A stretch of DNA of 64,000 nt from Candidatus Eiseniibacteriota bacterium (GTDB lineage: Bacteria; Orphanbacterota; Orphanbacteria; Orphanbacterales; Orphanbacteraceae). The notes under the pieces were generated by a model. That model did no database searches, was not told the DNA's origin, and worked only from the letters and a program-made list of their open reading frames with translations. The position numbers were made by a program, and so were the translations under genes. The DNA is taken from the NCBI GenBank assembly GCA_024276995.1, contig JAJRWB010000080.1, forward strand, positions 62,001 through 126,000. The letters are read 5' to 3'. This document shows positions 10,142 to 37,038 of the stretch, one piece after another; position 1 is the stretch's first letter; the number at the start of each line of letters is the position of its first letter.

Positions 10142-10348
10142 ATGGCCATCTTCGAATACCGGTGTCCTCATTGCGGGAAGAAGTTCGAGGATTTTTCGTC
10201 CATCGACAGGCGTGACGAACCGCGGGAGTGCCCCGCATGTTCCAGAACAGGCGCGAAGCGTGTTCTCTCCATGTTCTCCGCCCCCGCGGGGGGATCCTCC
10301 GCCGTCGCGACCGGGAACCGCGGCTGTCCCACGGGGCGGCCCACGTGA
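10142..10348 (+). CDS. FmdB-type zinc-ribbon small protein
   Basis: A 68-residue protein starting MAIFEYRCPHCGKKFEDF, with CPHC and CPAC pairs forming one zinc ribbon over residues 7-40. This is the putative regulatory FmdB/CxxC_CXXC_SSSS family. The second half is a Ser/Gly/Ala-rich tail, also usual for the family. Function is not established; homologues are small cytoplasmic zinc proteins. The ATG has a strong GGAGGAGGA site. The frame is open further upstream, but that part shows no conserved sequence. Confidence 0.85.
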   Translation: MAIFEYRCPHCGKKFEDFSSIDRRDEPRECPACSRTGAKRVLSMFSAPAGGSSAVATGNRGCPTGRPT

Positions 10349-10451
10349 GGGATCTGACCGCGCGCTTCCGTGCGAAGCGCATCCGTTCGAAAGACGCATC
10401 TGGCCCGTCCCCCGGGCGGCGCATGTTCCGGTGGATGCAGGATCGGTGACG

Positions 10452-12281
10452 ATGGGGCGCAAGACGATACCGGTCGCGGCGTTCGTCCTGGCGGGCGCCG
10501 TCTACGCCTGGATGCTCCCCGTCCGTTGGGTGACCCCCGACGAGGGCGCCCACATGATGAGCGCCTGGAGGATCCTTTCGGGCGAGGTGCCTCTTGCCGA
10601 CTATGGCGCTCGCCAACCTCTCTATTGTTATATCCACGCTTTCTCGCAGCTCTTTTTCGGCAACACTCTCTTCGCCGGAAGGATCGTATCGCTCCTCGCC
10701 ACCCTCGCGGCCGGCTGGCTCATTCTCCTCATCGGGAGGGCGATCCGCACGCCGGCGGAAGGGGTGGTCGCCTCGGTCTTCTTCCTCTTCTCGCCGCTCA
10801 CCATCGAGTACGCCGCCGTCGTACAGACCCAACCGGTGGTGATTCTCTTCTCCTGCGCCGCGGTGTTGATCCTCCTCACCCGGCGGGGATGGCGCCTCGC
10901 ACCGGCCGGCGCTTTTCTCGGGTGTGCGTACTACGTCCGCGAATCGTCGATGGCCCTTCTCCTCGCCGCGATCGTTTGGATCGTTCTTTTTCGCGGCGGT
11001 CGGTCGGCGATCCGGCGCGAGGTGGTCCCTCTTCTCGCCGGTTTCGCGGCGGTCGTCTTCCTGGTCGTCCTCTTCTACCTCCGCTTCCTCGACGCGGGAC
11101 AGATCTGGATGTCGCGAATCAACCCTCTCCGCCTCGGCGTCGACGCGATTCTGGCACTCACCGGGAATGCCGAAGGTGCCTTTGCGCCGGCGGCGGGAGG
11201 TGGTGTGGAAAAGACCCTCGGACGCCCGCCGAGTGTCGGCTACCTGCTCGTAGGCATGCGGTTCATCTCTTTCACCATCATCGCCGCCGCCGGGACGGTG
11301 GCCGCGAAGATCGCGACAATGCGGGAGCGCCGGATCGACGCAGGCTTCTGGTTCCCGGTCTGCTGGATCGGCGCGCTCATTCTTCTCTACGGTTACTGGT
11401 TCGCGAAGCGAGGCTTCTTTCCCGGTTACATGCGTGAGTTCGAACCGCCGCTTGCACTTCTCGCCGCCATCGGCCTCACGGAGGCCGTCCACGTCGTGCG
11501 TGCGCGACGGCGCGACCTGCCCTTCCTCGTGCTTCTCGTGCTCGCACCGGTGGCGATCCATCAAGGGCTTTTCCCCGTGTGGGTGGAGGAGTTCACCCTC
11601 GCGCTGTGCGCCGGTTTCGGCGCGCTGATCGTCCTTTCGGCGGGGCGCGTTCCACTGAAACGGGGCGTCCTCCCTCTCGTGGGGGGAGGGCTTTTCGTGA
11701 TCGTCGTTTTCTTCCTTCGACGAAGCGGCGCCCCTCTCGCGGGTGCACCCGACGGGCTGCTCGCCGTCGTGGCGCTCGTCGCTCTTCTCGCCGCCGCCGC
11801 ACTGCTGAAAGCGTCCGGCGTCACGGAGCGGCCGGCGCGACTTCTCCTCGGCGCCACGTGTTTCGCCGCGGCGCTTACCGCCACCGGCGTGGCGCGGCTC
11901 GGGGGACTCGATTTCCACGGGCCGTGGCCGGTTCCCCTCACCCGGCACGTGGCGAAGCTGATCGATGAGAAGAGTGCTCCCAACGACGAGATTCTTTCGG
12001 GCGGGGTGATCTGGTCGTATCTCGCCGATCGGCGCCCGTTCATGGGAATCAATCACCCTCTCAGCTTCTTCGATCTCGAAGTGGACGACCCGGAAACGGA
12101 CCAGTTCTATGCCGCATACCTCCAGAGGCCCCCCGCCATGGTGGTGCTCGACGGCTGCACCGAGGCCGCGTGGTTCAAGAGCACGAAGCTGAAAGGGGCG
12201 GTCGAGCGGGATTACGATCTTCTCTTCGAAGGTGTCGGGAAGGACACGGTGAAAGTGCTGATCCGCCGGTCGAGCGATTAG
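10452..12281 (+). CDS. GT-C superfamily (GT39-like) integral membrane glycosyltransferase
   Basis: A 609-residue membrane protein with around twelve hydrophobic helices. The first periplasmic loop carries VTPDEGAHMMSAWRILSGEVPLADYG, where DE is the usual GT-C catalytic acidic pair. A soluble C-terminal domain of about 120 residues follows the helices (from HVAKLIDEKSAPNDEILSGGVIWSYLADRRPF), as in many lipid-phosphosugar transferases. It should transfer a sugar from a polyprenyl phosphate on the outer face of the inner membrane. ATG at 10452 has AGGA nine bases upstream; GTG at 10446 is an alternative. Acceptor unknown. Confidence 0.82.
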   Translation: MGRKTIPVAAFVLAGAVYAWMLPVRWVTPDEGAHMMSAWRILSGEVPLADYGARQPLYCYIHAFSQLFFGNTLFAGRIVSLLATLAAGWLILLIGRAIRTPAEGVVASVFFLFSPLTIEYAAVVQTQPVVILFSCAAVLILLTRRGWRLAPAGAFLGCAYYVRESSMALLLAAIVWIVLFRGGRSAIRREVVPLLAGFAAVVFLVVLFYLRFLDAGQIWMSRINPLRLGVDAILALTGNAEGAFAPAAGGGVEKTLGRPPSVGYLLVGMRFISFTIIAAAGTVAAKIATMRERRIDAGFWFPVCWIGALILLYGYWFAKRGFFPGYMREFEPPLALLAAIGLTEAVHVVRARRRDLPFLVLLVLAPVAIHQGLFPVWVEEFTLALCAGFGALIVLSAGRVPLKRGVLPLVGGGLFVIVVFFLRRSGAPLAGAPDGLLAVVALVALLAAAALLKASGVTERPARLLLGATCFAAALTATGVARLGGLDFHGPWPVPLTRHVAKLIDEKSAPNDEILSGGVIWSYLADRRPFMGINHPLSFFDLEVDDPETDQFYAAYLQRPPAMVVLDGCTEAAWFKSTKLKGAVERDYDLLFEGVGKDTVKVLIRRSSD

Positions 12282-12453: not shown

Positions 12454-12858
12454 ATCTACATCGAAATCGACACCCGAAGCCGCGTTCCGATCTACGCGCA
12501 AATCATGGACCGGATCCGGGCCCTGGCCCGGGGGGGGAAACTGCCGCCCGATACGGCACTTCCGTCCGTGCGCCAACTCGCGGCCGACCTCGAGGTCAAC
12601 CCAAACACCGTGGCGAGGGCGTATAGCCTCCTCGAACGGGAGGGACTCGTCCGAACGGCAAGGCGGCGCGGAACCGTGATCGCGCCATCGGCCGGAAGCG
12701 TCGCCGACAGGACGGTGGCCGGGAGGCTGAACGACGCGATCGATCGGCTTTTCGAAGAAGCGGCCGTCCTCGGGGTCGATCTCGATGAACTCGCGCACGC
12801 CCTGCAACGCCGGCGCCGAGATCGAAGAAATCGGCGTTCCGAAAGGAGTTCGACATGA
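12454..12858 (+). CDS. GntR-family transcriptional regulator, YtrA subfamily
   Basis: A regulator of about 134 residues. The wHTH spans residues 8-75 (VPIYAQIMDRIRALARGGKLPP, then ALPSVRQLAADLEVNPNTVARAYSLLEREG), followed by a short helical dimerization tail, the YtrA layout. The coding frame clearly extends upstream of the first ATG (12505) through IEIDTRSRVPIYAQI, which is needed for helix 1. An in-frame TAG at 12448-12450 closes it, leaving only ATC at 12454, six bases after GGGAGG, as a positioned start. So either a rare ATC start is used or ATG has been misread. The stop overlaps the next gene by four bases. Probably a repressor of its own operon. Confidence 0.82.
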   Translation: MYIEIDTRSRVPIYAQIMDRIRALARGGKLPPDTALPSVRQLAADLEVNPNTVARAYSLLEREGLVRTARRRGTVIAPSAGSVADRTVAGRLNDAIDRLFEEAAVLGVDLDELAHALQRRRRDRRNRRSERSST

Positions 12859-14187: not shown

Positions 14188-15342
14188 ATGATCAAGGCAC
14201 ATGGTGGCAGACTGGTAAACCGAATCCCCGAGGGGAAGGAACGTGAAACACTCGAGGCCCTCGCGCCTTCGCTCCCCACGATCCGCCTCAACGAGAGAGA
14301 GCTCTCCGACTTCGAAATGATCGCCGTCGGGGCGATGAGCCCCCTCGAAGGGTTCATGAACCGGGAGGATTATCTCTCGGTGCTCGACCTGAAACGGCTC
14401 GCCAAGGGGCTTCCTTGGACGATCCCGGTGGTGCTCTCCTGGAAAGAAGGGGGCGCGGAGATCGGCGAAGGGGAGAAAGTCGCCCTCCTCGGGCCGGACG
14501 ACGAGATCCTCGGCGTCATGGAGATCGAGGAGAAGTACTCCGTCGATAAGTCGCAGGAGGCGTCGAAAGTGCTCCTCACCACGGACGACGCCCACCCGGG
14601 GGTTCGCTATCTCGACACGATCACCGACAGCTACCTCGGCGGTCCGATCCACATGCTGAAGCGGCCGGGCCACCACCGGTTCGAGAATTTCCGCCTCGAT
14701 CCGCGGGAGACGCGGGTGCTCTTCAAGGCGAAGGGATGGGACACGGTGGTCGCCTTCCAGACGAGGAACCCGATTCATCGTGCGCACGAATACCTGCAGA
14801 AGTGCGCCCTCGAGACGGTGGACGGCCTCCTGGTGCATCCCCTCGTCGGAGAGACCCAGAAGGGCGACATTCCGGCGGAGATCCGGATGGACTGTTACAA
14901 GGTCCTTTTCGACAATTATTACCCCTCCACGCGGACGGCGCTTTCCATCTTCCCGGCGGCGATGCGCTACGCCGGGCCCCGCGAGGCGGTGTTTCACGCC
15001 CTCCTGCGGAAGAATTACGGCTGTTCCCACTTCATCGTCGGCCGGGACCACGCCGGGGTGGGGAACTACTACGGTACGTACGACGCCCATTACATCTTCC
15101 GCGAGTTCGACCGGTACGAGATCGACATCACACCGATGTTCTTCGATCACTCGTTCTTCTGCAAAAAGTGTGGCAATATGGCATCCCAGAAGACGTGCCC
15201 CCACGGATCGGAAGACCATGTCTTCCTGAGCGGGACGAAAGTGCGGGCGATGCTCGCCGAGGGAACGAAGCCGCCGGCGGAGTTCACCCGTCCCGAGGTG
15301 GCGGACCTGCTGATGAAGTTCTACCAAAGCGGGAAGGAGTAA
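14188..15342 (+). CDS. sat: Sulfate adenylyltransferase (ATP sulfurylase)
   Basis: A 384-residue, full-length homo-oligomeric ATP sulfurylase: ATP + sulfate to APS + pyrophosphate, cytoplasmic. The N-terminal PUA-like domain covers about 1-165. The catalytic domain has QTRNPIHRAHEY (nucleotide-binding HxxH, about residues 191-202) and GRDHAGVG. A Cys cluster near FCKKCGNMASQKTCPHG fits the zinc site of the prokaryotic dissimilatory/assimilatory Sat type. The SD is GGAAGAGGAAG. It sits between an RHH gene and an AP-superfamily gene, with APS kinase two genes on, so its APS is likely converted to PAPS. No APS or PAPS reductase is in the window, which favours sulfation over sulfide production. 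Confidence 0.95.
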   Translation: MIKAHGGRLVNRIPEGKERETLEALAPSLPTIRLNERELSDFEMIAVGAMSPLEGFMNREDYLSVLDLKRLAKGLPWTIPVVLSWKEGGAEIGEGEKVALLGPDDEILGVMEIEEKYSVDKSQEASKVLLTTDDAHPGVRYLDTITDSYLGGPIHMLKRPGHHRFENFRLDPRETRVLFKAKGWDTVVAFQTRNPIHRAHEYLQKCALETVDGLLVHPLVGETQKGDIPAEIRMDCYKVLFDNYYPSTRTALSIFPAAMRYAGPREAVFHALLRKNYGCSHFIVGRDHAGVGNYYGTYDAHYIFREFDRYEIDITPMFFDHSFFCKKCGNMASQKTCPHGSEDHVFLSGTKVRAMLAEGTKPPAEFTRPEVADLLMKFYQSGKE

Positions 15343-15348
15343 ACCCGG

Positions 15349-16734
15349 ATGAGTCGTCTGGCGTTGATCGGCCTCGATGGTTTCGACCCGGACCTGGTAT
15401 TCAACCGGTGGATCGACGATCTGCCGAATCTGAAATCGTTGATGGATGAAGGGGTTCACGGACGGTTGGCATCGACCGTTCCGCCGGCCATGGTGCCGGG
15501 ATGGACCGCCATGATGACATCCCGCGATCCGGGGCAACTCGGCTTGTACGGCCACACCGATCGGCACGATCGCGACTACGACGACCTGCAGGAAAACGAC
15601 TCGTATTCGGTGCGGCCGAGGACCGTCTGGAACCATCTCTCCCGATTGAGGCTGCAGTCATTCGTCTTCGGCGTGCCCCAGACGTGGCCTCCGAAGCCGC
15701 TCAAGGGCCAACTCGTCTCGGGACCGTTCACGCCGAACAAGGAAGTGCACTGGACTCATCCCCGGGAGATCGCCGCGGAGGTCGACCGCGGCGCCGACGG
15801 CGATTACGTAATCGACGTTCGGAATTTCCGCACCGAAAATAAAGACTGGCTCATCCAGCAGGTGTACGAGGCGACACGCCGGCGATTCGCCGTGGTGCGT
15901 CGCTTCGTGGAGAAGAAGGAACACGATTTCATGATGATGGTCGAACCGGGCGCCGACCGGGTGCAGCACGGATTCTGGCGGTACATGGATCCGGAGTGCA
16001 TCGGCTATGAAAAGGAAGGTCGGCTCGAGACGACGATCCACGATTATTACGTCTTCCTCGACCAGGAAGTGGGGAGGCTGCTGAACGATCTTCCCATCGA
16101 CACCTCGGTGATGGTGGCATCGTGTTACGGCGCGAAAAGAATGAAGGGATCGTTCCGAATCAACGACTGGCTGATGCGCGAGAAGCTCCTCAAGCTGAAG
16201 AAGAAGCCGGAGGAGCCGATGCCTCTCGATGCGAAGATGATCAGTTGGCCGCGGACGAGCGCCTGGGCGGAAGGGGGGTTCATCGCGAGGATCTACCTGA
16301 ACGTGCAGGGCCGGGAGTCGAAGGGTGCCGTCGCCGCCGACAGCTACGAGGGTTTCCGCGACGAGCTGAAGGGGAAGCTCGAAGCGGTGGCCGGCCGGGA
16401 TGGAACACGTCTCGGCGTGAAGGTGTACAAGCCCGAGGAGCTTTACCGCGAGGTGAATCGTATCGCTCCCGACCTGATCGCCGTGATCGATGATTATCAC
16501 TGGCAGGCCGCGGGCTCGGTGGGGAACGAATCGCTCTTCTTCGAAGGGAGCGAAATGGGTCCCAACGAATCGAATCACGGGCCCGACGGGATCTTCATAT
16601 GGGATCATCCCGCGAAGGTGACGCCGAAAGCGAAGGATCCCTATTCGATTTATGACATCGCCCCCACCATCCTCGAGTACTTCGGCATCGAAGCGCCGGA
16701 GGGGATCGCCGGAGAATCGCTTTTCCAGGGGTAG
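15349..16734 (+). CDS. Alkaline-phosphatase-superfamily phosphodiesterase-like protein, probable pseudoenzyme
   Basis: A 461-residue protein of the type I phosphodiesterase/nucleotide pyrophosphatase family (PF01663 fold), no signal peptide. D10 (GLDGFD), D203 and H207 (GADRVQHGFW) and the late His (NHGPDG) remain as metal ligands. The nucleophile position in the PxxVPxW motif is M48 where active members have Thr or Ser. The usual SDHG metal pair is replaced by S-C259-Y260-G. Two independent parts of the active site are therefore gone, so hydrolysis is unlikely and a binding or scaffold role is more plausible. It begins six bases after sat, so it is in the same operon. It lacks the LGY tail. 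Confidence 0.85.
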   Translation: MSRLALIGLDGFDPDLVFNRWIDDLPNLKSLMDEGVHGRLASTVPPAMVPGWTAMMTSRDPGQLGLYGHTDRHDRDYDDLQENDSYSVRPRTVWNHLSRLRLQSFVFGVPQTWPPKPLKGQLVSGPFTPNKEVHWTHPREIAAEVDRGADGDYVIDVRNFRTENKDWLIQQVYEATRRRFAVVRRFVEKKEHDFMMMVEPGADRVQHGFWRYMDPECIGYEKEGRLETTIHDYYVFLDQEVGRLLNDLPIDTSVMVASCYGAKRMKGSFRINDWLMREKLLKLKKKPEEPMPLDAKMISWPRTSAWAEGGFIARIYLNVQGRESKGAVAADSYEGFRDELKGKLEAVAGRDGTRLGVKVYKPEELYREVNRIAPDLIAVIDDYHWQAAGSVGNESLFFEGSEMGPNESNHGPDGIFIWDHPAKVTPKAKDPYSIYDIAPTILEYFGIEAPEGIAGESLFQG

Positions 16735-16824
16735 GGCGTCCGGCGCGGACTCTCGGGGAACGGCGAGGGGGGGCAGCAAGGTCGCGGCGCGACAAAGCGG
16801 CGCGGCACCAGAAGGAGAAGGAAA

Positions 16825-17427
16825 GTGAAGGGTTTTACACTCTGGTTTACCGGTCTTTCCGGTTCGGGAAAGACCACCCTGGCCCGCGAGGTGGAGGAGG
16901 CCCTCCTCGAGCGCGGAATGAAAGTGGAGGTTCTCGACGGCGACGTGGTGCGCACGAACCTGTCGAAGGGGCTCGGTTTCTCGAAGGAAGACCGGGACGA
17001 GAATATCAAGCGGATCGGTTTCGTCAGTCACCTTCTCAGCCGGAACGGCGTGGTGGCGATCGCCTCGGCGATCAGCCCGTATGAAGAGATCCGCCGGCGG
17101 AACCGCGACATGATCGAGCGGTACGTCGAAGTCTACGTCCGATGCTCTCTCGACGAGCTGAAGCGCCGCGACGTGAAAGGCCTCTACGCGAAAGCCCTCG
17201 CCGGCGAGATCAAGGGATTCACCGGTGTCGACGACCCGTACGAAGAGCCGAAGAACCCGGAGATCCTCGTCGATTCGGAGAAGGAAACGGAAGAGGAGAG
17301 CTTCCAGAAGATCATCCGGACTCTCGAACTGATGGGTTACATTCCGGGCGCCGACAACAGCGACGAGGTCTCTCCCGAAGAGGAAGAGAAGATCAAGCAG
17401 CGCCTTCACGATCTCGGCTACATCTAG
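16825..17427 (+). CDS. cysC: Adenylylsulfate (APS) kinase with C-terminal LGY tail
   Basis: A 200-residue kinase making PAPS from APS and ATP in the cytoplasm. The P-loop is [12 protein letters not shown] (about residues 8-19). [27 protein letters not shown] holds the APS site. The lid region has [26 protein letters not shown]. Catalytic length ends near residue 170. An added acidic stretch then ends [15 protein letters not shown], the tail shared with neighbouring proteins and not needed for the kinase fold. The GTG start has AGAAGGAGAAGG upstream. Its product could serve the sulfotransferase at 54.2-55.0 kb. Enzyme call very firm. Confidence 0.95.
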
Positions 17428-17450
17428 CATCTCCCGGGAGCGCATCCGGT

Positions 17451-18785
17451 TTGGCGTTCTGGAAAAAAGACCGCGGAAAGAAAGCGTTCGTGTTCGGGGT
17501 GGACGGCGTGCCGTTCACCCTGATCACGAGGCTGATCGACGAGGGGGTCATGCCCCGCGCCGCCGGTATCTTCCCTTCCGGTACGCTTCACAAGATGAAG
17601 GTAACCCTCCCGGAGATCTCGGCGGTCAGCTGGACGAGCTTTATGACCGGCACCGCTCCCGGGACGCACGGAGTCTACGGCTTCACCGATTTTCGTGTCG
17701 GCACGTACGACATCCGTTTTCCCGCGTTCCCCGAATTGAAAACGCCGACCCTTTGGGATCGTCTCGGCGAAAAGGGAAAGCGATCGGTGGTGATCAACCA
17801 GCCGTCGACCTACCCGGCGCGCGAAATCCCCGGATCTCTCGTATCCGGATTCGTAGCGATCAACCTCGCCATGGCGGTCTACCCGGCGTTTCTCCACAAG
17901 AAGCTCGAGCAGCTCGACTATGAGATCGACATCGATTCCGCCAGGGGAGGGAAGGATCCGGAGCATCTTTTTCGACAGCTCGAATCGACGCTTCGCGGCC
18001 GCGAGAGGGCGTTCGAGTATCTCTGGGAGCGGGGGAAGTGGGATCTCTTCGAACTGGTGGTGACCGGAACGGACAGGTTGATGCATTTTCAGATGCACGC
18101 GCTCGCCGATCGCGCCGATCGCTACCACCAGCGGTGCCTCGATTACTATAATAAGGTAGACCATTTTCTCGGCAAGGTCTTCGATCGATATGTCGATGAG
18201 ATTAACGGGGGGAAGTCCGCCGCCGGGTTCTTCGCGCTCTCCGATCACGGGTTCACGAAGATCCGACGGGAGTTCTACCTCAATGCGTGGCTCTGCCGGG
18301 AAGGGTACCTGTCGTTCACCACGGACGAGCCCGATTCGTTCGAGCGGATCGCCTCCGGGTCGAAGGCGCTCGGTCTCGATCCGACGAGGATCTACCTCCA
18401 CCGGAACGACCGGTTCCCCCGGGGGAGTGTCGATTCCCGGGACGCGCGGACGCTCTGCGAGGAGATTCGCGCGAAGGCGCTCGCCGTGGAGTTCGAGGGG
18501 GAGAAGGTTTTCCAGGCGGCCCACTTCGGGGAGGAACTCTATTCCGGCCCCGCCGCCGCCTCGGCGCCCGATCTGGTCCTCGTGGCGAATGACGGGTATG
18601 ATTGCAAGGGGTGGCTGAGAACGGGCGAACCGTTCGGGCGCTCCCATTTCACGGGAATGCACACATGGGATGATGCTTTTCTTTGGACTCCCGAAACGAT
18701 GCCGGACCGGTTCGATATCACCGGCGTGGCGGGTGTGATTGAGAGGCGCTTGCTCGATGGAGATGGACAGGGTGATACAAGGTAG
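17451..18785 (+). CDS. AP-superfamily phosphodiesterase/nucleotide pyrophosphatase-like protein
   Basis: A 444-residue cytoplasmic-looking PF01663-type protein with a complete active site. D in FGVDGVP, the nucleophile Ser in PEISAVSW, TDRLMHFQ supplying Asp and His, SDHGF, and a late His in SHFTGMH are all present. The family cleaves phosphodiester or phosphoanhydride bonds with two zinc ions. PAPS, APS or sulfo-lipids are conceivable substrates from context, but nothing in the sequence settles it. The start is TTG at 17451, the first usable codon after the cysC stop, with GGGAG twelve bases upstream. It overlaps the start of the next AP gene. No LGY tail. Confidence 0.82.
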   Translation: MAFWKKDRGKKAFVFGVDGVPFTLITRLIDEGVMPRAAGIFPSGTLHKMKVTLPEISAVSWTSFMTGTAPGTHGVYGFTDFRVGTYDIRFPAFPELKTPTLWDRLGEKGKRSVVINQPSTYPAREIPGSLVSGFVAINLAMAVYPAFLHKKLEQLDYEIDIDSARGGKDPEHLFRQLESTLRGRERAFEYLWERGKWDLFELVVTGTDRLMHFQMHALADRADRYHQRCLDYYNKVDHFLGKVFDRYVDEINGGKSAAGFFALSDHGFTKIRREFYLNAWLCREGYLSFTTDEPDSFERIASGSKALGLDPTRIYLHRNDRFPRGSVDSRDARTLCEEIRAKALAVEFEGEKVFQAAHFGEELYSGPAAASAPDLVLVANDGYDCKGWLRTGEPFGRSHFTGMHTWDDAFLWTPETMPDRFDITGVAGVIERRLLDGDGQGDTR

Positions 18786-20949
18786 TAGAAGCAGAACGGG
18801 TTTTCTCACGGCATTGCTCATCGGCGTGGCGGCGCTCGGCCTGGCGGCCGGGCCGGCGGACGCCTATATCGGTCCCGGAGCGGGATTCGCCTTCCTCTCC
18901 TCGTTCGCGGTGATCTTCGTCACTTTCATTCTCGCCGTCTTCTCGGTGCTCCTCTGGCCGATCCGCTTCGTCTGGAGGCTGATCTTCCGCAAGAAGCCGC
19001 CGAAGACCGATGTCGACCGCGTCATCGTGATCGGCCTCGACGGTCTCAACCCGCACTATGCGCGGCGGTACATGGACGCCGGCAAGATGCCGAACATGCA
19101 GAAACTCTCCGAGATGGGCGGCTTCCAGAAGCTCGAGACGGTGATGCCCGCCATGTCGCCCGTGGCGTGGTCGTCGTTCGCCACCGGTGTCGATCCTTCC
19201 CGGCACAACCAGTTCGACTTCCTCCAGAGGGATCCGAAGACGTACCTGCCCGATCTCGCCTCGGTGCGGATCGGAAACGTTTCGAAAGTGATGAAGCTCG
19301 GCCGCTACAGGATCCCCCTCGGCAAGCAGGCGGTCACCATGCTCCGCAAGTCGGTTCCCTTCTGGAAGATCCTCGGCGACTACGGCATCTTCTCCCACAT
19401 CCTGCGCGTGCCGATCACCTTCCCGCCCGAGAAGCACAACGGGTTGCTCCTCTCGGCGATGTGCGTGCCCGACCTGAGGGGCTCGCAGGGAACATTTACC
19501 TATTATACGACCGACGAGAGCGAGACGGGGGAGGCGACGGGGGGCGTGAGGAAGCTGGTGAAAGTCGTCGACAACGTGGTCGAGTCGAGCGTGCCCGGTC
19601 CGGATAACTCGATGACCGAGGAGCAGGAGGAGTTGGAAGTTCCCTTCAAGGTGACCCTCGACCGCGCCGCGAAGGAGGCGCATTTCGAGTTCCACGGCGA
19701 GACGTTCACGCTGAAGCCGCGCCAGTACTCCCACTGGATCCGCACGGCGTTCAAGCCGGGTCTCGGCATCAAGGTGTGGGGCCTCACGCGGTTCTACATC
19801 ATGGAGATGGAGCCCCACTTCAAGCTGTACGTTTCGCCCGTCCAGGTCGACCCGGAGAAGCCGGCGATGCCGATCTCCCATCCCGGTTACTACAGCACCT
19901 ATCTCGCCAAGCTCCAGGGTCCGTTCGCGACGATCGGCTTCGCCGAGGACACGTGGGCGCTCAACGAGAGGGTGATCGACGAGGCGGCGTTCCTCGAGCA
20001 GATGTGGTCGACCCACGAGGAGAGGGAGAAGATGCTCTTCAACTCCCTCGACCAGTGCAAGAAGGGGCTCGTCGTGTGCGTCTTCGACGGAACCGACCGG
20101 ACGCAGCACATGTTCCATCGCTACCTCCTTCCCGACCACCCCGCGAACCGCGGCCAGGACACCGAAATCCACAAGCACGCCATAGACGACCTGTACGAAC
20201 GGATCGACGACCTGATCGGGAGGGTGATGGAGAAGGTCCTCGACGACCCGAAGACGGTCCTCATGGTGATGTCCGATCACGGCTTCACCCAGTTCACCCG
20301 CGGCGTGAATCTCAACTCGTGGCTCGTCGAGAACGGGTACATGGCGATGAAGGACGGCAAGAAGACGTGCGGCGACTGGTTCAACGGCGTCGACTGGTCG
20401 AAGACGAAGGCGTACAGTTTCGGTCTCGCCGGAATCTACCTCAATATCGAAGGGCGCGAGGGGCAGGGAATCGTGAAGAAAGGCGAGGAGGCGGACGCCC
20501 TGAGGCGGGAGATCCGCGACAAGCTGAAGGAACTTCGCGACGCGCAGGCGAACGGCGCGCGCGTCTGCTCCGATGTCTTCCTCGCGGAGGATCTCTACAA
20601 GGGACCGTACAGGGGGAACGCTCCCGATGTCCTCCCCGGCTTCGATCACAATTACCGCCAGTCGTGGGACGCGGCGGTGGGAAAAGCGACCGGCGAGGTG
20701 ATCTCCGACAACCTGAAGCCGTGGAGCGGCGATCACTGCGTCGACTGGCGCCTCGTGTCGGGGACGCTCGTTTCGAGCCGGGCCCTGGCCAGAAGCAACC
20801 CGGGAATCATCGACATGGCCGCGTCGGTGCTCGACCTGTTCGGTGTGCCGCGGCCGCGCCATATGATCGGCCGGTCGTTCTTCCGGCCCGACGAGAGCGG
20901 GGCCGCCGCCGACGATTCCCCCGCGGAGGAGAAGGTCGCACATGGGTAA
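18757..20949 (+). CDS. Membrane-anchored AP-superfamily phosphodiesterase-like protein
   Basis: A 730-residue protein. It has an N-terminal signal/anchor and a second hydrophobic helix (about 15-35 and 45-70, ending in a basic WRLIFRKKPP), then a large AP-fold domain. Metal and nucleophile motifs are intact: GLDGLNP, Ser in PAMSPVAW, GTDRTQHMFH, SDHGFTQF and WSGDHC. An insertion of roughly 150 residues between the first and second motif blocks is shared with the next gene and absent from the shorter paralogues. The ATG at 18757 overlaps the previous reading frame. Probably acts at the membrane outer face on a lipid- or nucleotide-linked phosphodiester; substrate unknown. Confidence 0.82.
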   Translation: MEMDRVIQGSRSRTGFLTALLIGVAALGLAAGPADAYIGPGAGFAFLSSFAVIFVTFILAVFSVLLWPIRFVWRLIFRKKPPKTDVDRVIVIGLDGLNPHYARRYMDAGKMPNMQKLSEMGGFQKLETVMPAMSPVAWSSFATGVDPSRHNQFDFLQRDPKTYLPDLASVRIGNVSKVMKLGRYRIPLGKQAVTMLRKSVPFWKILGDYGIFSHILRVPITFPPEKHNGLLLSAMCVPDLRGSQGTFTYYTTDESETGEATGGVRKLVKVVDNVVESSVPGPDNSMTEEQEELEVPFKVTLDRAAKEAHFEFHGETFTLKPRQYSHWIRTAFKPGLGIKVWGLTRFYIMEMEPHFKLYVSPVQVDPEKPAMPISHPGYYSTYLAKLQGPFATIGFAEDTWALNERVIDEAAFLEQMWSTHEEREKMLFNSLDQCKKGLVVCVFDGTDRTQHMFHRYLLPDHPANRGQDTEIHKHAIDDLYERIDDLIGRVMEKVLDDPKTVLMVMSDHGFTQFTRGVNLNSWLVENGYMAMKDGKKTCGDWFNGVDWSKTKAYSFGLAGIYLNIEGREGQGIVKKGEEADALRREIRDKLKELRDAQANGARVCSDVFLAEDLYKGPYRGNAPDVLPGFDHNYRQSWDAAVGKATGEVISDNLKPWSGDHCVDWRLVSGTLVSSRALARSNPGIIDMAASVLDLFGVPRPRHMIGRSFFRPDESGAAADDSPAEEKVAHG

Positions 20950-22993
20950 GGTGGGATTTCGTCTCTCAACGAAGAAGTTCGCCGCTGTTGCCGCGCTCCT
21001 AGCCGGCGGGGCGCTTGTTACCTCTTTCACTGCACCCGCGCGCGCGGTGGAACATAAGAAGATGCTCGTCGTCGGTTTCGACGGTATGGACCCGAAGCAG
21101 TTACGCCGGATGATCGACGAGGGCCTGATGCCGAATATGAAGCGGCTCATCGCCGAGGGCGATTTCCGCACCCTCGGAACGAGCATCCCCCCCCAGAGTC
21201 CCGTGGCATGGTCGAATTTCATCACCGGGCAGAACCCGGGGGGGCATAACATTTTCGACTTCATCCACCGTGACCCGAAGACCTACATCCCCTATCTTTC
21301 CACGTCGGAGGCTGTGAGTTCCGACAAGTCTCTCAAGTTGTGGGGCGACTGGCAGATCCCCCTCGGCGGTGGTGAGGTGCTGAACCTCAGGGAAGGGGAG
21401 GCGTTCTGGGAGGAACTCGAGAAACACGGCGTGCCGACGACGATTTTCAAGATCCCCGCGAACTATCCTCCCGGGGAATCGAAGAAGATCCGGTCGATTT
21501 CCGGCATGGGCACGCCCGACATGCAGGGTACGCCCGGCATGTTCAGCTACTATACCACCCACCCGATGGAGAACGCCGACGACATCTCCGGCGGCCATGT
21601 ATACGACATCTATTTCGATCGCGGCAGGGCGACGTCGGCGATCCACGGTCCGGCCAACCCGTTCCACAAGAGCGGCGAGGATTCCGAATGTCCGATCACT
21701 ATTTTCCGGGACGAGGAGAACGGCGTGGCGAAGGTGGTGGTCGGCGACGGTGACGACGAGGTGCTCTTGAAAACAGGTGAGTGGAGCGGTTGGATCCCGG
21801 TGGAGTTCTACATGCTCGACGACGACGGCTTCGGAGGTTTCGTGCGCCCCGCGGCTGCGCCCGCCGGGCTCGCCATCAGCGGCATCGTCAAGTTCTATCT
21901 CAAGTCGGTCTCTCCCGAATTCAGCCTCTACTGCACCCCCGTGCAGATCGATCCGATCGATCCGGCGCAGCCCGTCTCCACACCGCCCGACTGGTCGAAG
22001 GAGATCGCCGAGAAGTGCGGCCGGTTCTATACGCAGGGGATGCCGGAGGATACCAAGGCGCTCGAGGGGGGAGTCTTCGACGACGGCGAGTTCCTCGACC
22101 AGGCGACGCGGATTCTCGAGGAGCGGATCGGCCTGTTCAAGAAACAGGTGGACGAGTTCGCCGCCCAGGACTGGGGGTTTCTCTTCTTCTATTTTTCGAG
22201 CCTCGACCAGCAGACCCATATGATGTGGCGATGCACCGACCCGAGCCATCCGGCGGCGGACGAGGAATCCGCCCACTATCCCGACGCGATCCGACATATC
22301 TTCGAGCGTCTCGACTACGCCGTCGGGTATGCCCGCGAGCACCTTTCCGACGACGTCGATCTCGTCATCATGTCGGACCACGGCTTCGCCCCGTGGTACC
22401 GCGAGGTTCATCTCAACTCGTGGCTCTACGACAACGGCTACATCGCCCTGAAGGACCCTTCGCCCGAGGCGCGCGAGCAGTCCGACTTCTTCATGAACGT
22501 CGACTGGCGCCGCACGAAGGCGTACGCGCTGGGGATCAACGGGCTCTATATTAATGTTCGGGGGCGGGAGAAGTACGGAACCGTCGCCCCCGGCGCCGAG
22601 CGCGAGGCCCTCGAGAACGAATTGGTCCAAAAGCTCAAGGAGCTGAGGGATCCGAAATCGGGGAAGCTGGCGATCAAGGAAGTCTATAAGTCCGATGATG
22701 TGTATTCGGGGAAATACGCGAAGAACGCGCCCGATCTGAACGTCGGCTACAACAGGGAATTCAGGGGATCGAACCAGTCGGCGCTCGGCGAATTTCCGAT
22801 GGAATGGTTTTCCGATAACACGGGAAAATGGAGCGGTGACCACTGCATCGCGGCGGACCTGGTGCCCGGCATTCTCGTGTCGAACCGAAAGGTCCGCTAC
22901 AACGACCCGAAGCTGTACGACCTGACGGCGACGATTCTCGCCGAGTTCGGCATCGACAAGCCGTCGGAGATGATCGGCACCCCCGTCTTCTAG
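20942..22993 (+). CDS. Secreted AP-superfamily phosphodiesterase-like protein
   Basis: A 683-residue paralogue of the preceding protein. A signal peptide (about 1-36, ending TAPARAVE) precedes the AP fold. GFDGMDP, Ser in PPQSPVAW, SLDQQTHMMW, SDHGFAPW and WSGDHC give a complete two-metal site. The central insertion (about 150-330) includes STPDMQGTPGMFSYYT-type motifs also seen in the upstream paralogue, so the two are tandem duplicates that have diverged. The start overlaps the previous stop by eight bases. It is followed by an RHH gene carrying the LGY tail that this protein lacks. Expected to work in the periplasm. Confidence 0.83.
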   Translation: MGKVGFRLSTKKFAAVAALLAGGALVTSFTAPARAVEHKKMLVVGFDGMDPKQLRRMIDEGLMPNMKRLIAEGDFRTLGTSIPPQSPVAWSNFITGQNPGGHNIFDFIHRDPKTYIPYLSTSEAVSSDKSLKLWGDWQIPLGGGEVLNLREGEAFWEELEKHGVPTTIFKIPANYPPGESKKIRSISGMGTPDMQGTPGMFSYYTTHPMENADDISGGHVYDIYFDRGRATSAIHGPANPFHKSGEDSECPITIFRDEENGVAKVVVGDGDDEVLLKTGEWSGWIPVEFYMLDDDGFGGFVRPAAAPAGLAISGIVKFYLKSVSPEFSLYCTPVQIDPIDPAQPVSTPPDWSKEIAEKCGRFYTQGMPEDTKALEGGVFDDGEFLDQATRILEERIGLFKKQVDEFAAQDWGFLFFYFSSLDQQTHMMWRCTDPSHPAADEESAHYPDAIRHIFERLDYAVGYAREHLSDDVDLVIMSDHGFAPWYREVHLNSWLYDNGYIALKDPSPEAREQSDFFMNVDWRRTKAYALGINGLYINVRGREKYGTVAPGAEREALENELVQKLKELRDPKSGKLAIKEVYKSDDVYSGKYAKNAPDLNVGYNREFRGSNQSALGEFPMEWFSDNTGKWSGDHCIAADLVPGILVSNRKVRYNDPKLYDLTATILAEFGIDKPSEMIGTPVF

Positions 22994-23026
22994 CGGAACG
23001 ATACGACAGCGCACAGGAGGTATCGA

Positions 23027-23221
23027 ATGTTCGGAGGAACGAAAGTCAAGCTGACGAAGGAACTGTTCGCCCGGGTGAAGAAGTATGCCGAACTGGCCGG
23101 CTACTCCTCAGCGGATGAGTTCGTCGTTCACGCCCTGGAGAAGGAGCTTTCCACCCTGGAAGAGGGGGCGTCGGAAGAGGAAATCAAGAAGAAGCTCCAG
23201 GGACTCGGTTACATTTCGTAA
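23027..23221 (+). CDS. Small ribbon-helix-helix protein with LGY tail, second copy
   Basis: A 64-residue protein. TKVKLTKELFARVKKYAELAGYSSADEFVVHALEKEL has the strand-helix-helix pattern of CopG-like proteins. An acidic linker and the helix EEEIKKKLQGLGYIS follow, ending like the first RHH protein and like APS kinase. AGGAGG stands eight bases before the ATG. It lies between an AP phosphodiesterase and the Oxa1-like membrane protein. The N-terminal strand is lysine-rich, so DNA binding is possible; so is assembly with partners through the common tail. Confidence 0.74.
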   Translation: MFGGTKVKLTKELFARVKKYAELAGYSSADEFVVHALEKELSTLEEGASEEEIKKKLQGLGYIS

Positions 23222-23240
23222 AGAAGGGGATTGAAGAGAT

Positions 23241-24059
23241 ATGTGGACAATCGTCCATGGCGTGACGACGTTTTTCGACGGGCTGATCGGGCTTTTCGGA
23301 TCGATGAACCCTCTCGTCGGGCTCTCCGTCGTGTCGGTCATCACCGGCGGGATCATGCTGGTGGTCTGGAAGTTCACCTCCAACCAGGAGGCGATCGCCG
23401 ACGCGAAGACGAAGATAGGCGCGTACATCCTCGAAATCCGTCTCTTCCAGGCCGACCTCGGACTCCAGTTCGCGGCCCAGGCGAAAGCGTTTCGGGCGAA
23501 CCTGAAGTACATGTCTCTCGCCGTCCCCCCCATGCTCATCGTCCTCATCCCGGTGGTGATCATTCTCGTGCAACTCGACGTGCGCTACCAGCGCAGGCCG
23601 CTCCTGCCCGGCGAAACGACGCTCTTCAAGGTGGAAGTCGCCGAAGGTGTCGATCCGGGCGATGTCACGCTCACGGTGCCAGACGGTATCACCGTGGAAA
23701 CGCCGCCGATGCGCATGCCGAGCGTTTCCGAAGTGGACTGGCGGATCCGCGCCGACCGGGAGGGGGAGTACGAACTAACCGTCGCCGTCCGGGACGCGAA
23801 ATTCACCAAGCGCGTCGTGGTGGGCAATGAGCTGACCCGCCTTTCCGAGGCGCGCGACCAAGCGGGAATCCTCGGCGTCTGGATGTCCCCGGCCGAGGCG
23901 CCGCTGCCGAAGAACTCACCGGTGCGGATGATCTGCCTCGCCTATCCCGACCGCGAAATGAAACTCTTCGGTGTCGGTCTTCACTGGCTCCTCGTTTTCT
24001 TCGTCGTTTCCGTCGCCTTCGGGTTCGCCATCAAGGGATGGGTCGGCGTGGAAGTGTAG
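23241..24059 (+). CDS. Three-helix membrane protein with Oxa1/DUF106 (EMC3-like) core
   Basis: A 272-residue membrane protein. A first helix near 25-45 is followed by a charged, coiled-coil-like stretch (SNQEAIADAKTKIGAYILEIRLFQADLG) with KAFRANLKYMS, and a second helix (PPMLIVLIPVVIILVQL). This order and the KYM/P pattern resemble the DUF106/EMC3/TMCO1 branch of the Oxa1 membrane-insertase superfamily. A beta-rich soluble domain of about 120 residues (from ETTLFKVEVAEGVDPGDVTLTV) lies before a last helix near 248-268, an unusual insertion for the family. It is the last gene in the AP operon and could help insert or anchor its products. The superfamily call is moderate. Confidence 0.6.
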   Translation: MWTIVHGVTTFFDGLIGLFGSMNPLVGLSVVSVITGGIMLVVWKFTSNQEAIADAKTKIGAYILEIRLFQADLGLQFAAQAKAFRANLKYMSLAVPPMLIVLIPVVIILVQLDVRYQRRPLLPGETTLFKVEVAEGVDPGDVTLTVPDGITVETPPMRMPSVSEVDWRIRADREGEYELTVAVRDAKFTKRVVVGNELTRLSEARDQAGILGVWMSPAEAPLPKNSPVRMICLAYPDREMKLFGVGLHWLLVFFVVSVAFGFAIKGWVGVEV

Positions 24060-24080
24060 CGCCGCGTCCGGACAAACGCA

Positions 24081-24116
24081 TTGACACCCCGACTCGGCGG
24101 CCCTACCGTCGACGGT
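24081..24116 (+). promoter_or_regulatory. Candidate promoter with palindrome over the -10
   Basis: TTGACA (24081-24086), 17 bases, then a weak TACCGT (24104-24109). A perfect 12-base palindrome, ACCGTCGACGGT (24105-24116), covers the -10 and could be an operator for the ABC transporter operon that follows. Confidence 0.45.
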
Positions 24117-24180
24117 CGACGGAAGAAATCGCGCCCGTTGGCGCCTCATCAACGCCTGAAATCAAGAAAATCGCCTTCTC

Positions 24181-25305
24181 ATGCTGCGGATCGCATTGCG
24201 CAACATCCTGCGTGCCGGAACCCGAAGCGCCCTGACCCTCGTGGGGGTCGCGGGGGGAGTCGCTCTTTTCGTTTCCCTGGCGGCGATCAGCGACGGTTTT
24301 CGGCGCCAGCTCGACGAATCGATCGCCCGGTGCAAGGTCGACGTCATCGTCCAGGAGAGAGGGGCGGCCACGCCGGTCGCATCGAGGGTGCCGGAACGCC
24401 TCCTCGATGATCTGCGCCGTCTTCCCGGCGTACGCTCCATCTCGCCGCTCACCGTCGGATCGATCCGTCTTCCCCGCCTCCCGTATCTCTTTATCTTCGG
24501 TGTCGGTTCAAGCGAGCCGTTCGTCTCGATCACCGGATGGCTCGGCACCGGAATGATCGAGGGGACGATGTTCCGAGCGGGAAGGAAAGAGGTGGTTCTC
24601 GGGCGGCTGGCGGCGCGCCGGCTGAAGCTGGCGGTGGGCGATACGCTCCTCGTGGGCGGAAAAGAACCGTACCGCGTGACCGGCGTCTACTGGCTCGGCC
24701 AGGGGATTCTCGACGGGGGAGCGGTGATCGACATCTCCACCTCTCAAGTCCTGCTCAAACGGAAGGGGTTCGTGAATATCGCCCTTGTCGAAGGTCGTGA
24801 GAAGGGCGATACGGCCCGTCTCGTCGGGGTGATCGAGGAGCATATTCCCGACGTGGAGGCGATTCCCGCCGGATCGATGCGAAGCCGGATCCGGGCGGTC
24901 ACCATGGTAGACTCGTTCATCGTCGCCGTGTCGGTCGTCTCTTTGCTGCTGAGCGGTGTCTTGATCCTGAACACCCTTCTCATGGCGATTTCGGAGCGGA
25001 CGAGGGAGATCGGCATTCTCGCGGCCGTCGGCTGGTCTCGGGGAATGATCATGCGGCTGATCATCTGCGAGGCGATCGTGCTCGGCGTCGCGGGCGGCGT
25101 GCTCGGCTACGGCCTCGCCATTCCGACGTTGAAGCTGATGGCGCTTCTTCCCGCAATGGGCGCCGGGTTGATCCCCTCGTTTCCGCCGCCGTCGCTCTTT
25201 CTTTCCGCCGTCGCTCTTTCGGGGCTCATCGCGGCGCTGAGCGCCCTTTATCCGGCGCTCTTCGCGACCCGGTTGCAGATCGCCGCGGCGCTCCGTTTCG
25301 AGTGA
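24181..25305 (+). CDS. ABC transporter permease, FtsX/LolC/MacB type
   Basis: A 374-residue permease with the MacB/FtsX layout. One N-terminal helix (about 15-38) is followed by a periplasmic domain of about 220 residues and three C-terminal helices (about 240-265, 295-320, 330-355). The last portion has the family pattern LILNTLLMAISERTREIGILAAVGWSRGMI. Such permeases work in lipoprotein release, drug efflux or cell division signalling, using energy from a LolD-type ATPase, present here two genes on. No clear ribosome site precedes the ATG. The substrate is undetermined. Confidence 0.85.
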   Translation: MLRIALRNILRAGTRSALTLVGVAGGVALFVSLAAISDGFRRQLDESIARCKVDVIVQERGAATPVASRVPERLLDDLRRLPGVRSISPLTVGSIRLPRLPYLFIFGVGSSEPFVSITGWLGTGMIEGTMFRAGRKEVVLGRLAARRLKLAVGDTLLVGGKEPYRVTGVYWLGQGILDGGAVIDISTSQVLLKRKGFVNIALVEGREKGDTARLVGVIEEHIPDVEAIPAGSMRSRIRAVTMVDSFIVAVSVVSLLLSGVLILNTLLMAISERTREIGILAAVGWSRGMIMRLIICEAIVLGVAGGVLGYGLAIPTLKLMALLPAMGAGLIPSFPPPSLFLSAVALSGLIAALSALYPALFATRLQIAAALRFE

Positions 25306-30689: not shown

Positions 30690-30718
30690 CGGTGCGGCCG
30701 GCAGGAGGAACGGAAACG

Positions 30719-32923
30719 ATGAAGCGGTACTTGAACACCGGCGGAGCCGTGGGACTCGCCCTCGGCTTCCTGGTCGGCATGCTCGTTTGTGTTTTCGAGT
30801 TTCCCTTCCCGAACTATACCCTCGTGGGCAACGAATTGATCGTGGAACTTCTCAGGCGGTTTCTCTCTCCCCAAGCGGCGCGGGCCGTCGACTCCCCCTT
30901 CCGGTTCCTCCTCCTCTATGCTCTCGGCGGCGCCGCTTTCGGGGCCGTGGCGGGCGGTCTCGCGGCGCTCGTGGTTCCTCTCACCGGACGAAAGCCCTCT
31001 CGACGCGGGCGTGTCGGCATACTCTTCACTCTTGTCGCCACGCTGATCTTGACGGGATACTCCACGCTCTTCGTTCTTCACTTTCGTCTTCCCGACCGGC
31101 AGGGGATTCTCATCACGGCGTTCTTCTTCCTTCTTTCCCTGGCGATATCCGCGGCCCTCTCGTTCGGCGTAAGCCGCCTCGTCCCGCCCGCCGAATCCGT
31201 CCGCGGGCACAGGGTGCTCCCCGCCGTTCTGATTCTTCTCCTCTTGGCGGAAACCCTCTCCATCCGGGGCGCCGTCGCCACCCACGGTCGGGGCGAGGAA
31301 GGGATGGCCCTCACGGGAAAGAAGGTGGTCCTCATCTGTCTCGACGGTCTCGGGTGGGGCGTCATCGAACCGCTCCTGAAAGCGGGGGAACTCCCGGCTC
31401 TCGGCGCGCTCATCGAAAACGGTTCGCACGGGATTCTTCGCTCCACGCTGCCGCCGATCAAGTCGCCGCAGGTGTGGACCAGCGTGGCGACGGATCGCCT
31501 TCCGGCGGACCACAAGGTCTACGATTTCCTCTCCTACTCGGTCGAGCGGGGGAAGTGGGTGACCACCACGAACCGGATTCGAAGGAAACCGGCCTACTGG
31601 GACATCCTCGCCGCCGACGATATTCCCGTGGACGTGCTCTAGTGGTACCCCTCGTGGCCGCCCGATTCGATTCCCGGCGTGATGCTCACCGACAGGGCGA
31701 CGTACTTCACCATTCCCGACCGCGTCTACCCCGGTTCGTATGAACCGTTTCTCGACTCTCTTCTCGCCGATCTTCGGCCGCGGATCGCCTCGCTCAGGAA
31801 GCGGTTCACTCCGTACGATCCATCTTCCGATCGTGACACCGGCGGCGCCGATCTCCGCCGTTCAGCGGTGGAGATCCTCGACCAGACGTGCATCCGCGAC
31901 AAGGTCACCCTCGCTTTCGCCCTGAGAAGGCTTCGAGAGGGGCAAAGCGACGTGATGGCGGTCTACTTCCGGGGCAGCGACGCCATGCAGCACAAGTTCA
32001 GAAAGTACTACGCCGCCGTGCACGATCCGCTGCTCGCGGCGTTTCTTTACGATATAAAGGATTGGGAGAAGGACGAACTCGGGCCGGTGATCGACTCCTA
32101 TATCCGGTTCATCGATGAATCGATCGGCCGGATCGTGAAGAATCTCGATCCGGGCACTACGGTGATCGTTTTGTCCGATCACGACAGCGGTTATCGGTAT
32201 GATCGCCAGATCGTCGTCCGTCCGGGCGCCCTGCTGGAGCGCCTCGGCTGGACGGTGCCGGGAGCAAACGGGATCGACATGAACCGGAGCCGCATTTACG
32301 GGGTGAAGGACCCGGAAAGAGCGGATGTGATCCGGTTCTATGCCAATCTGAGAGGCCGGGAGGAAACAGGAGTGATCACGCCCGACGAACTCGACCGCGT
32401 CCTTGCCGATGCCGCGTCGACGCTCCGGTCGCTCAGGACGGAAAGCGGCATCCCCCTCTTCCTGGAGGTGACGCCGGGAAAAAGCGCCGGGAGGAAGAAC
32501 GGTGGCGGCGATCTTCTCGCCCGAATCAATCCGGACGCACTGGGTGGGGTTCTCTCCGGGGAGGGAGGGAGTCTCGCGGTGAGCAAGATCGCTTCGCGGT
32601 CGCCGAAATCCGGGAATCACAGGATTTCGGGTATACTCGTTCTTTCGGGAGGCGACATCCGGAAGGGAAAGAGAATCCGGGGCGCCACGATCTACGATAT
32701 CGTGCCGACGCTCTTCTATCTCCTCGGTCTGCCCGTGGCAGCCGACTGGGTGGGGGATCCGATTCTCTCGGCGATCGACGGGGATTTCGTGAAGAGCCAT
32801 CCCGTTCGAGCGATTTCCACGTACGACGATGTTCCTTTCGGCGGCCGGGGCGGCCCGGTGGAAACGGAAGGGGCGGACGAGGCGGTGCGCAGGGAGCTGC
32901 GTTCCCTGGGGTATATACAATGA
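30719..32923 (+). pseudogene. AP-superfamily membrane phosphodiesterase interrupted by an in-frame TAG
   Basis: The frame encodes 734 residues apart from one TAG at 31640-31642 (codon 308). Before it are several N-terminal membrane helices (1-180) and the start of the AP domain: CLDGLGW, Ser in PIKSPQVW. After it the fold continues without shift: WYPSWPPDSIPGVML, GSDAMQHKF, SDHDSGY, NHRISGILVL, and the C-terminal tail VRRELRSLGYIQ. The stop falls inside the conserved G/W-W-P-T-W-P segment of this family; TGG to TAG would need one base change. It could be a real lesion, a sequence error, or readthrough. GGAGGAACGG precedes the ATG. Confidence 0.8.
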
Positions 32924-36438: not shown

Positions 36439-37038
36439 ATGAAGAGAATCTTTTCAACGGTGCTAATCCTTTCGATACTCATCGCTCTCCTTTCCGGTTG
36501 CGGCCGGAAGGAGAAGAAGGGCGAACACGGCGGCACGATCGTGAAGGCCGCGGGGTACAGTTTCGAGCCGGTGTTTTCCAATTTCGGCGTGGAGATCTAT
36601 GTGAGTCGCGGTTCGAAACCGGTACCGATCGAAGGTGTCGTCGGTTCCGCCACGGTGGAGCAGGAAGGAAAACCACCCCGTTGGGCCGACCTGCGTGCGG
36701 AAGTGGAACGGCTCTTGGTGCCGTATGCCTTTCCCACCATCGCCGGCTACTCGGCGAACGTCCGGTTCAACATCAAGGGGCTGGAGGAGGACCGGGAAAA
36801 GACGGTGGAATTCGCCGCCCCCTTTCGGATGACCGTTCTTTACGGCTACAGCTGTCCGAAGCATCCGGAGATCACCACGCTGAGGCGGGGGAAATGCGTG
36901 AAGTGCGGCGGCGCCGACAAGGTGGAAACGAAGGTGAGATTCCAGTGCAGTGTGCACGATGACGTCTGGTCGATGACGTACGGCGAGTGCGAGCAGTGCG
37001 GAACCACGCTCGTTCTCCGCCCGGTGCCCGAACCGTGA
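36439..37038 (+). CDS. Lipoprotein with two heavy-metal-binding (HMBD-like) Cys/His modules
   Basis: A 199-residue lipoprotein: lipobox LIALLSGC near residue 22, a basic linker, a beta-rich middle (about 40-130), then two tandem metal-binding modules. These are YSCPKHPEITTLRRGKCVKCGG and FQCSVHDDVWSMTYGECEQCGTTL. They follow the C-x2-H...C-x2-C pattern of the YHS-like heavy-metal-binding domains found in copper exporters and CusB adaptors. The metal is unknown; copper or zinc is plausible. AAAGGAG precedes the ATG. The stop overlaps the next AP lipoprotein gene by four bases, so delivery of zinc to the AP enzymes is an attractive but unproven idea. Confidence 0.75.
   Translation: MKRIFSTVLILSILIALLSGCGRKEKKGEHGGTIVKAAGYSFEPVFSNFGVEIYVSRGSKPVPIEGVVGSATVEQEGKPPRWADLRAEVERLLVPYAFPTIAGYSANVRFNIKGLEEDREKTVEFAAPFRMTVLYGYSCPKHPEITTLRRGKCVKCGGADKVETKVRFQCSVHDDVWSMTYGECEQCGTTLVLRPVPEP

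Follow-up and report, generated by a model that had tools for sequence, protein, structure and literature searches.

Why does a bacterial operon for sulfate activation keep, between its genes for ATP sulfurylase and APS kinase, a protein of the alkaline phosphatase fold that has lost its nucleophile and two of its metal ligands? The question is raised by AP1, encoded at 15349-16734 (+) of a 64,000-nucleotide stretch of one contig (hereafter the window) from a 3.76 Mb draft genome in 81 contigs (G000). A preliminary description of the window had proposed AP1 to be a binding or regulatory pseudoenzyme for sulfate activation. Here AP1 is considered within a phylum sample of seven genomes from one family (G000-G006), among its orthologues in other phyla and beside known systems.

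The Operon and Its Surroundings

The operon is a collinear set at 14188-25305 comprising sat, AP1, cysC, AP2, AP3, AP4, P272 and a MacB/FtsX-type permease gene. The ATP sulfurylase gene sat (14188-15342, +; PF01747/PF14306; NCBIfam NF003166, 548 bits), whose RNPIHRAHE and VGRDHAG motifs are intact, ends six bases before AP1 begins, just as first described. The APS kinase gene cysC (16825-17427, +; PF01583; NF002059) follows with an intact P-loop, GLSGSGKTT. Three further PF01663 proteins come next: AP2 (17424-18785, +; the listed ORF opens at 17142 and homology runs from about 17424), with Ser and SDH intact, and AP3 (18739-20949, +) and AP4 (20942-22993, +), both with intact catalytic residues, the former with a hydrophobic and the latter with a signal-like N-terminus. 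P272 (23241-24059, +), a conserved operon member with hydrophobic stretches at both ends, had no match in Pfam or NCBIfam, and no named NCBIfam model matched AP1.

The order sat-AP1-cysC is found in all seven genomes of the phylum, and AP2-AP4 and P272 come after cysC wherever the contigs reach, with the exception of AP4 in G003 and G006. In those two operons (loci L057 and L056, respectively) AP4 is absent and AP3 is directly followed by P272. Sat, CysC and AP2-AP4 retain their catalytic residues, the CysC P-loop being slightly variable in G001, G005 and G030. The operon from sat to P272 recurs in several other bacterial phyla, and by this conserved linkage AP1 is a component of a sulfate-activation (PAPS) operon. 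PF13469 sulfotransferases are present in 7/7 genomes and PF01507 (the PAPS reductase family) gave no match in five of the seven, so the operon probably feeds sulfation. A literature search found no paper on the sat-AP1-cysC-AP2-AP3-AP4 operon, and the present analysis draws attention to it as a conserved unit spread across several phyla.

The alkaline phosphatase superfamily is greatly expanded in the G000 genome, which has about 70 PF01663-type matches, several of them pieces of one gene and many sulfatase-like. The window holds at least eight genes of the superfamily rather than the six counted at first. They include a sulfatase-like PF01663-type match at about 35126-35854 (+), another PF01663-type match at about 39609-40292 (-), an AP-type protein at 36987-38588 that keeps Ser and SDH, and a PF01663 protein with N-terminal membrane segments at 30692-32923 (+). 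The earlier count of five proteins keeping both Ser and SDH stands for AP2, AP3, AP4 and the 36987-38588 protein; the fifth, at 30692-32923, keeps SDH and has an ambiguous nucleophile position. It also carries an in-frame TAG (31640-31642) 5' of the SDH motif, which could be a genuine nonsense mutation, a fault of the assembly or the mark of a broken gene. A few kb upstream of the operon lies a gene for a heparinase II/III-like protein (PF07940; 7022-9811, -); between the two, 10212-12281 encodes a PMT_2-type membrane protein and 12505-12858 a GntR-type regulator.

Fold and Active Site of AP1

The AP1 frame is open throughout and encodes 461 residues, which match PF01663 with 134 bits (cut-off 23). 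An AlphaFold2 model (pLDDT 94, pTM 0.93) has ENPP1, the Xac (Xanthomonas) NPP and phosphonoacetate hydrolase as its closest solved folds in Foldseek, with a best E of about 1e-16. By fold and descent AP1 thus belongs to the PF01663, or NPP-type, superfamily. A phmmer search against PDB sequences returned no hit, and a plasmid search returned distant haloarchaeal homologues only. The protein begins directly at the fold (MSRLALIGLDG) and is apparently cytoplasmic.

Alignment bears out the residues first reported, namely D10 (codon 15376-15378, +), Met48 (15490-15492, +), D203 and H207 (codons 203-207, 15955-15969, +), S258-Cys259-Tyr260 (the codons of the last two at 16123-16128, +) and a late His, H410 (16576-16578, +). 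D203, H207 and H410 form an intact Zn1 site and D10 is the sole residue left of the Zn2 site, a division of the ligands in line with established knowledge of the NPP family. Met48 replaces a Thr nucleophile, and Cys259 and Tyr260 replace the Asp-His of the SDH metal motif. Ser had been named as the expected nucleophile; the ancestral nucleophile of the AP1 subfamily is instead Thr, as in all 80 named orthologues (80/80 Thr/SDH). According to the NPP3 report (PMC6052110), which lists the seven residues together, the dizinc centre of NPP3 consists of D168, T206, D326, H330, D373, H374 and H483; one zinc serves to activate the Thr, and phosphate is bound at the other. These residues correspond to D10, M48, D203, H207, C259, Y260 and H410 of AP1, which therefore keeps four of the seven residues of the D/T/D/H/D/H/H set (PMC6052110). 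From this loss of residues, AP1 is likely to be non-catalytic.

Distribution of Defective and Canonical Copies

Each of the seven phylum genomes has one AP1, the other six being 51-59% identical to that of G000. Six of the seven copies are defective and only G002 is fully canonical. It had been asked whether Met48, Cys259 and Tyr260 are conserved among homologues, and they are not: each lineage has its own replacements. Residues 48/207/259/260 are M/H/C/Y in G000, T/R/A/Y in G004, M/R/E/H in G003 and G006, T/H/P/F in G001 and G005 and T/H/D/H in G002, and in place of SDH the defective copies read SCY, SAY, SEH (G003, G006) and SPF (G001, G005), respectively. Every defective copy retains D10 and H410, while H207 has become Arg in G003, G004 and G006.

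Outside the phylum 80/80 named AP1 loci are canonical, as retrieved with patterns that covered H207 and the 400-407 loop and left T48, D259 and H260 free. These proteins are orthologous to AP1 of G000, align with it over their full length and often occupy the same gene position; they differ in that all keep Thr48, D203, H207, SDH and H410, a catalytic motif that is incomplete in AP1 of G000. As Met48, Cys259 and Tyr260 are absent from all 80, the changes in AP1 are more than chance. Beside sat or cysC, AP1 outside the phylum, in genomes labelled Eisenbacteria, Poribacteria, Acidobacteria and Chloroflexi, among others, is always canonical. The idea that Thr and SDH are kept by homologues at this gene position is true of G002 and of the copies outside the phylum, but its corollary of a strain-level lesion does not hold, the loss being at the level of the phylum. 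A strain lesion or sequencing error is also rejected because the whole pocket is altered and five further genomes have related losses. Among the 50 canonical loci of other phyla with 3 kb on both sides, sat or cysC lies within 3 kb in 25 and a sulfatase within 7 kb in 19; some other canonical loci sit among glycosyltransferase, Wzz and sulfatase genes.

The only further defective copies are second AP1-type genes in two genomes of another phylum, G104 (L085:6496-7953, -) and G370 (L087:7164-8621, +), each beside an AP3-like gene. Like AP1 of G000 they have lost the nucleophile (here Arg48), read Ser-Cys-Tyr for SDH and keep their frame. They differ in their independent origin, their AP3-like neighbor, a dN/dS of 0.205 and the presence of a canonical AP1 beside sat in the same genomes; no sat was found near the second copies. 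The hypothesis that all SCY-type copies, that of G104 included, go back to one origin was rejected (AU test, p = 0.0035).

These replacements bear on the possibility that AP1 is a changed enzyme, with a one-metal or rebuilt site and a different reaction in each lineage. The intact Zn1 site of some copies would allow this, and Arg at 207 (G003, G004, G006) or at 48 (second copy of G104) could replace metal charge. There is also a precedent in YejM, which was thought inactive and then reported to be a magnesium-dependent phosphatase (PMC7576196). However, no replacement catalytic set is common to the lineages, and YejM retains its nucleophile Thr and metal site whereas AP1 of G000 has Met at that position, and we hold the changed enzyme to be improbable.

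Number of Losses

In the AP1 tree G002 branches apart from the six defective copies, and a grouping of G002 with G003 and G006 is rejected (p 0.0015). The derived residues G11, R75 and A307 are common to the four defective lineages compared and absent in G002. The joint tree of Sat, CysC, AP2 and AP3, on the other hand, joins G002 with G003/G006 (100/99), as do the single-gene trees of AP3 (strongly, 100/98) and of Sat and AP2 (moderately), CysC giving no resolution. The rpoB tree, which is unrooted, has the same split as the operon tree. The AP1 tree therefore suggests one loss in the phylum and the organism tree at least two. Either catalysis could have been lost two or more times with convergence, or only once, with G002 retaining the active form through an ancient duplication or exchange; the disagreement between the trees could stem from long-branch attraction, from convergence or from hidden paralogy. 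Import of the G002 gene from outside the phylum is disfavored because stretches peculiar to the phylum, WDHPAK and WTHPRE among them, occur in its AP1 too.

Pocket Divergence and Selection

The changes extend beyond the metal ligands. At 95 positions conserved in at least 95% of 109 canonical relatives, G002 has no differences and each defective copy has 22-28, whereas canonical copies have at most 10 (median 1). The changes are concentrated in the YGFRNR loop (67-72), at 311-314, 383-389 and 401-409 and at the metal ligands; all defective copies keep the Gly, Pro and Trp residues of the fold together with D10, D203 and H410. Constraint has moved away from the pocket: pairwise identity at 36 pocket positions, which were picked by conservation and motif rather than from model coordinates, is 0.99 among canonical copies (partly by construction) and 0.39 among defective ones, with 0.61 and 0.54, respectively, in the rest of the protein. 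Among the defective copies, AP1 has thus come to be less conserved inside the pocket than outside it. The segment 421-440 is 0.81 identical among defective copies vs. 0.43 among actives, but canonical G002 shares this segment, so its conservation is a trait of the phylum that is not clearly tied to the loss.

The state of the pocket speaks to a second alternative, a ligand-sensing pseudoenzyme in which AP1 binds its old nucleotide (e.g., APS or PAPS) through the pocket and Zn1 and signals its level to Sat or CysC. The Zn1 ligands D203, H207 and H410 are intact in G000, G001 and G005, D10, D203 and H410 persist in every defective copy, and the NPP3 nucleophile mutant T206A still binds nucleotides in crystals (PMC6052110). 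Nonetheless, each lineage has its own substitutions at the pocket positions 69-72, 311-312, 385-387 and 401-406, three genomes have Arg in place of H207 and the pocket is less conserved than other positions, all of which make ligand sensing rather unlikely.

Despite this divergence the gene is maintained. Six of six defective frames are open over 457-461 codons in copies that have diverged to 51-58% identity, and Nei-Gojobori dN/dS was obtained for the two sister pairs of the phylum, no close relative of G000 having been found. For G003/G006 it is 0.143 for AP1, 0.106 for Sat, 0.076 for CysC, 0.165 for AP2 and 0.204 for AP3, and for G001/G005 it is 0.053 for AP1 and 0.061 for Sat. Constraint on the defective AP1 of the phylum is thus similar to that on its intact neighbors, and an intact frame under purifying selection, as expected of a pseudoenzyme, is found in these pairs and frames. 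In the pair G104/G370 the second copy has 0.205 and the canonical copy 0.039. The early remark that AP1 is not simply decaying is upheld by the conservation of frame, gene position and purifying selection across the defective genomes, and the comparison of selection then proposed gives values (0.05-0.14) near those of the neighbors.

Slow decay would mean that AP1 is unneeded in the phylum and drifting toward loss. It would fit the trees, in which the AP1 path from the phylum ancestor is about twice that in the joint tree of Sat, CysC, AP2 and AP3 in the defective lineages and about a quarter of it in G002. However, the dN/dS values disfavor it, and the frames have stayed open and the fold residues in place despite the divergence, which leaves decay a poor explanation. 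It is also conceivable that AP1 is kept solely for operon architecture or for translational coupling of sat and cysC, and not for its protein, as the six-base gap and the conserved order might imply. Architecture alone would not hold dN/dS at this level or conserve the residues of the fold, and this explanation is barely credible.

A Proposed Role in Sulfate Activation

AP1 has probably turned into a non-catalytic partner protein, since its catalytic machinery is lost in 6/7 genomes yet selection preserves it. With somewhat more confidence than doubt, we take it to be a pseudoenzyme that has been maintained, most likely to scaffold or regulate the proteins of the operon. The ancestor would have been an active, probably cytoplasmic, two-metal NPP-type phosphodiesterase, widespread in bacteria, whose gene often lies beside sat, cysC or sulfatase and glycan genes. 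In most lineages of the phylum catalysis would then have been lost, with the Zn2 site and substrate-pocket residues replaced lineage by lineage, while AP1 retained its reading frame and gene position under purifying selection. It may now use its surface to scaffold or regulate other proteins of the operon, the candidates being its direct neighbors Sat and CysC, and the effect would be to organize or tune PAPS production for sulfotransferases. The lack of activity we infer from the lost residues, and partners and effect from gene order alone. A scaffolding or regulatory role is favored over a conserved nucleotide-binding role because conservation in the pocket has fallen below that of the remaining sequence. 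Of the role first proposed for AP1, synteny supports the link to sulfate activation, and the pocket identities (0.39 vs. 0.54) argue against binding through the old nucleotide pocket. Against the scaffold or regulator stand the Zn1 site of G000, G001 and G005, which may leave some chemistry possible, and the half of canonical AP1 genes elsewhere that are not next to sat or cysC.

A bolder and tentative extension is that the ancestral AP1 was bifunctional, both an enzyme and a structural or regulatory subunit of Sat/CysC. Its catalytic half would have been discarded repeatedly (at least twice in the phylum, should AP1 share the history of the organism tree, and once more in another phylum) and its non-catalytic half selected, leaving an undescribed subunit of PAPS synthesis derived from a phosphodiesterase fold. 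Pseudoenzymes are a known kind of protein; what is rare here is a natural series, a phylum-level set whose members have gone to different lengths in losing the same active site, with canonical G002 inside the phylum and an independent counterpart outside it. The AP1 proteins of G002 and G000, predicted to be active and inactive, respectively, form a ready-made pair for testing. If AP1 is a regulator of the PAPS pathway, it would represent a new type of control on bacterial sulfation.

Comparison with Known Systems

The NPPs (PF01663; ENPP1, ENPP3 and Xac NPP) share with AP1 the fold, the PF01663 domain, the Zn1 ligands and D10. AP1 differs from them in the absence of the nucleophile and two Zn2 ligands, an altered pocket, an identity of about 15% and an apparently cytoplasmic location. 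In a regulatory role, the comparison is with YejM (PbgA/LapC), a protein of the alkaline phosphatase fold that regulates LpxC proteolysis in Enterobacteria; it is membrane-anchored, with a periplasmic hydrolase domain that keeps Thr302 and the metal site and has reported phosphatase activity (PMC7576196). Since YejM keeps Thr and metal and was reported active, it counsels caution in deducing the inactivity of AP1 from its residues (PMC7576196). AP1, which starts at the fold and is without the Thr, is not a YejM-type regulator. What the two would have in common, if the role proposed for AP1 is correct, is a hydrolase fold employed in the regulation of a biosynthetic pathway, and by this analogy YejM is the nearest precedent for an alkaline phosphatase fold in a regulatory role.
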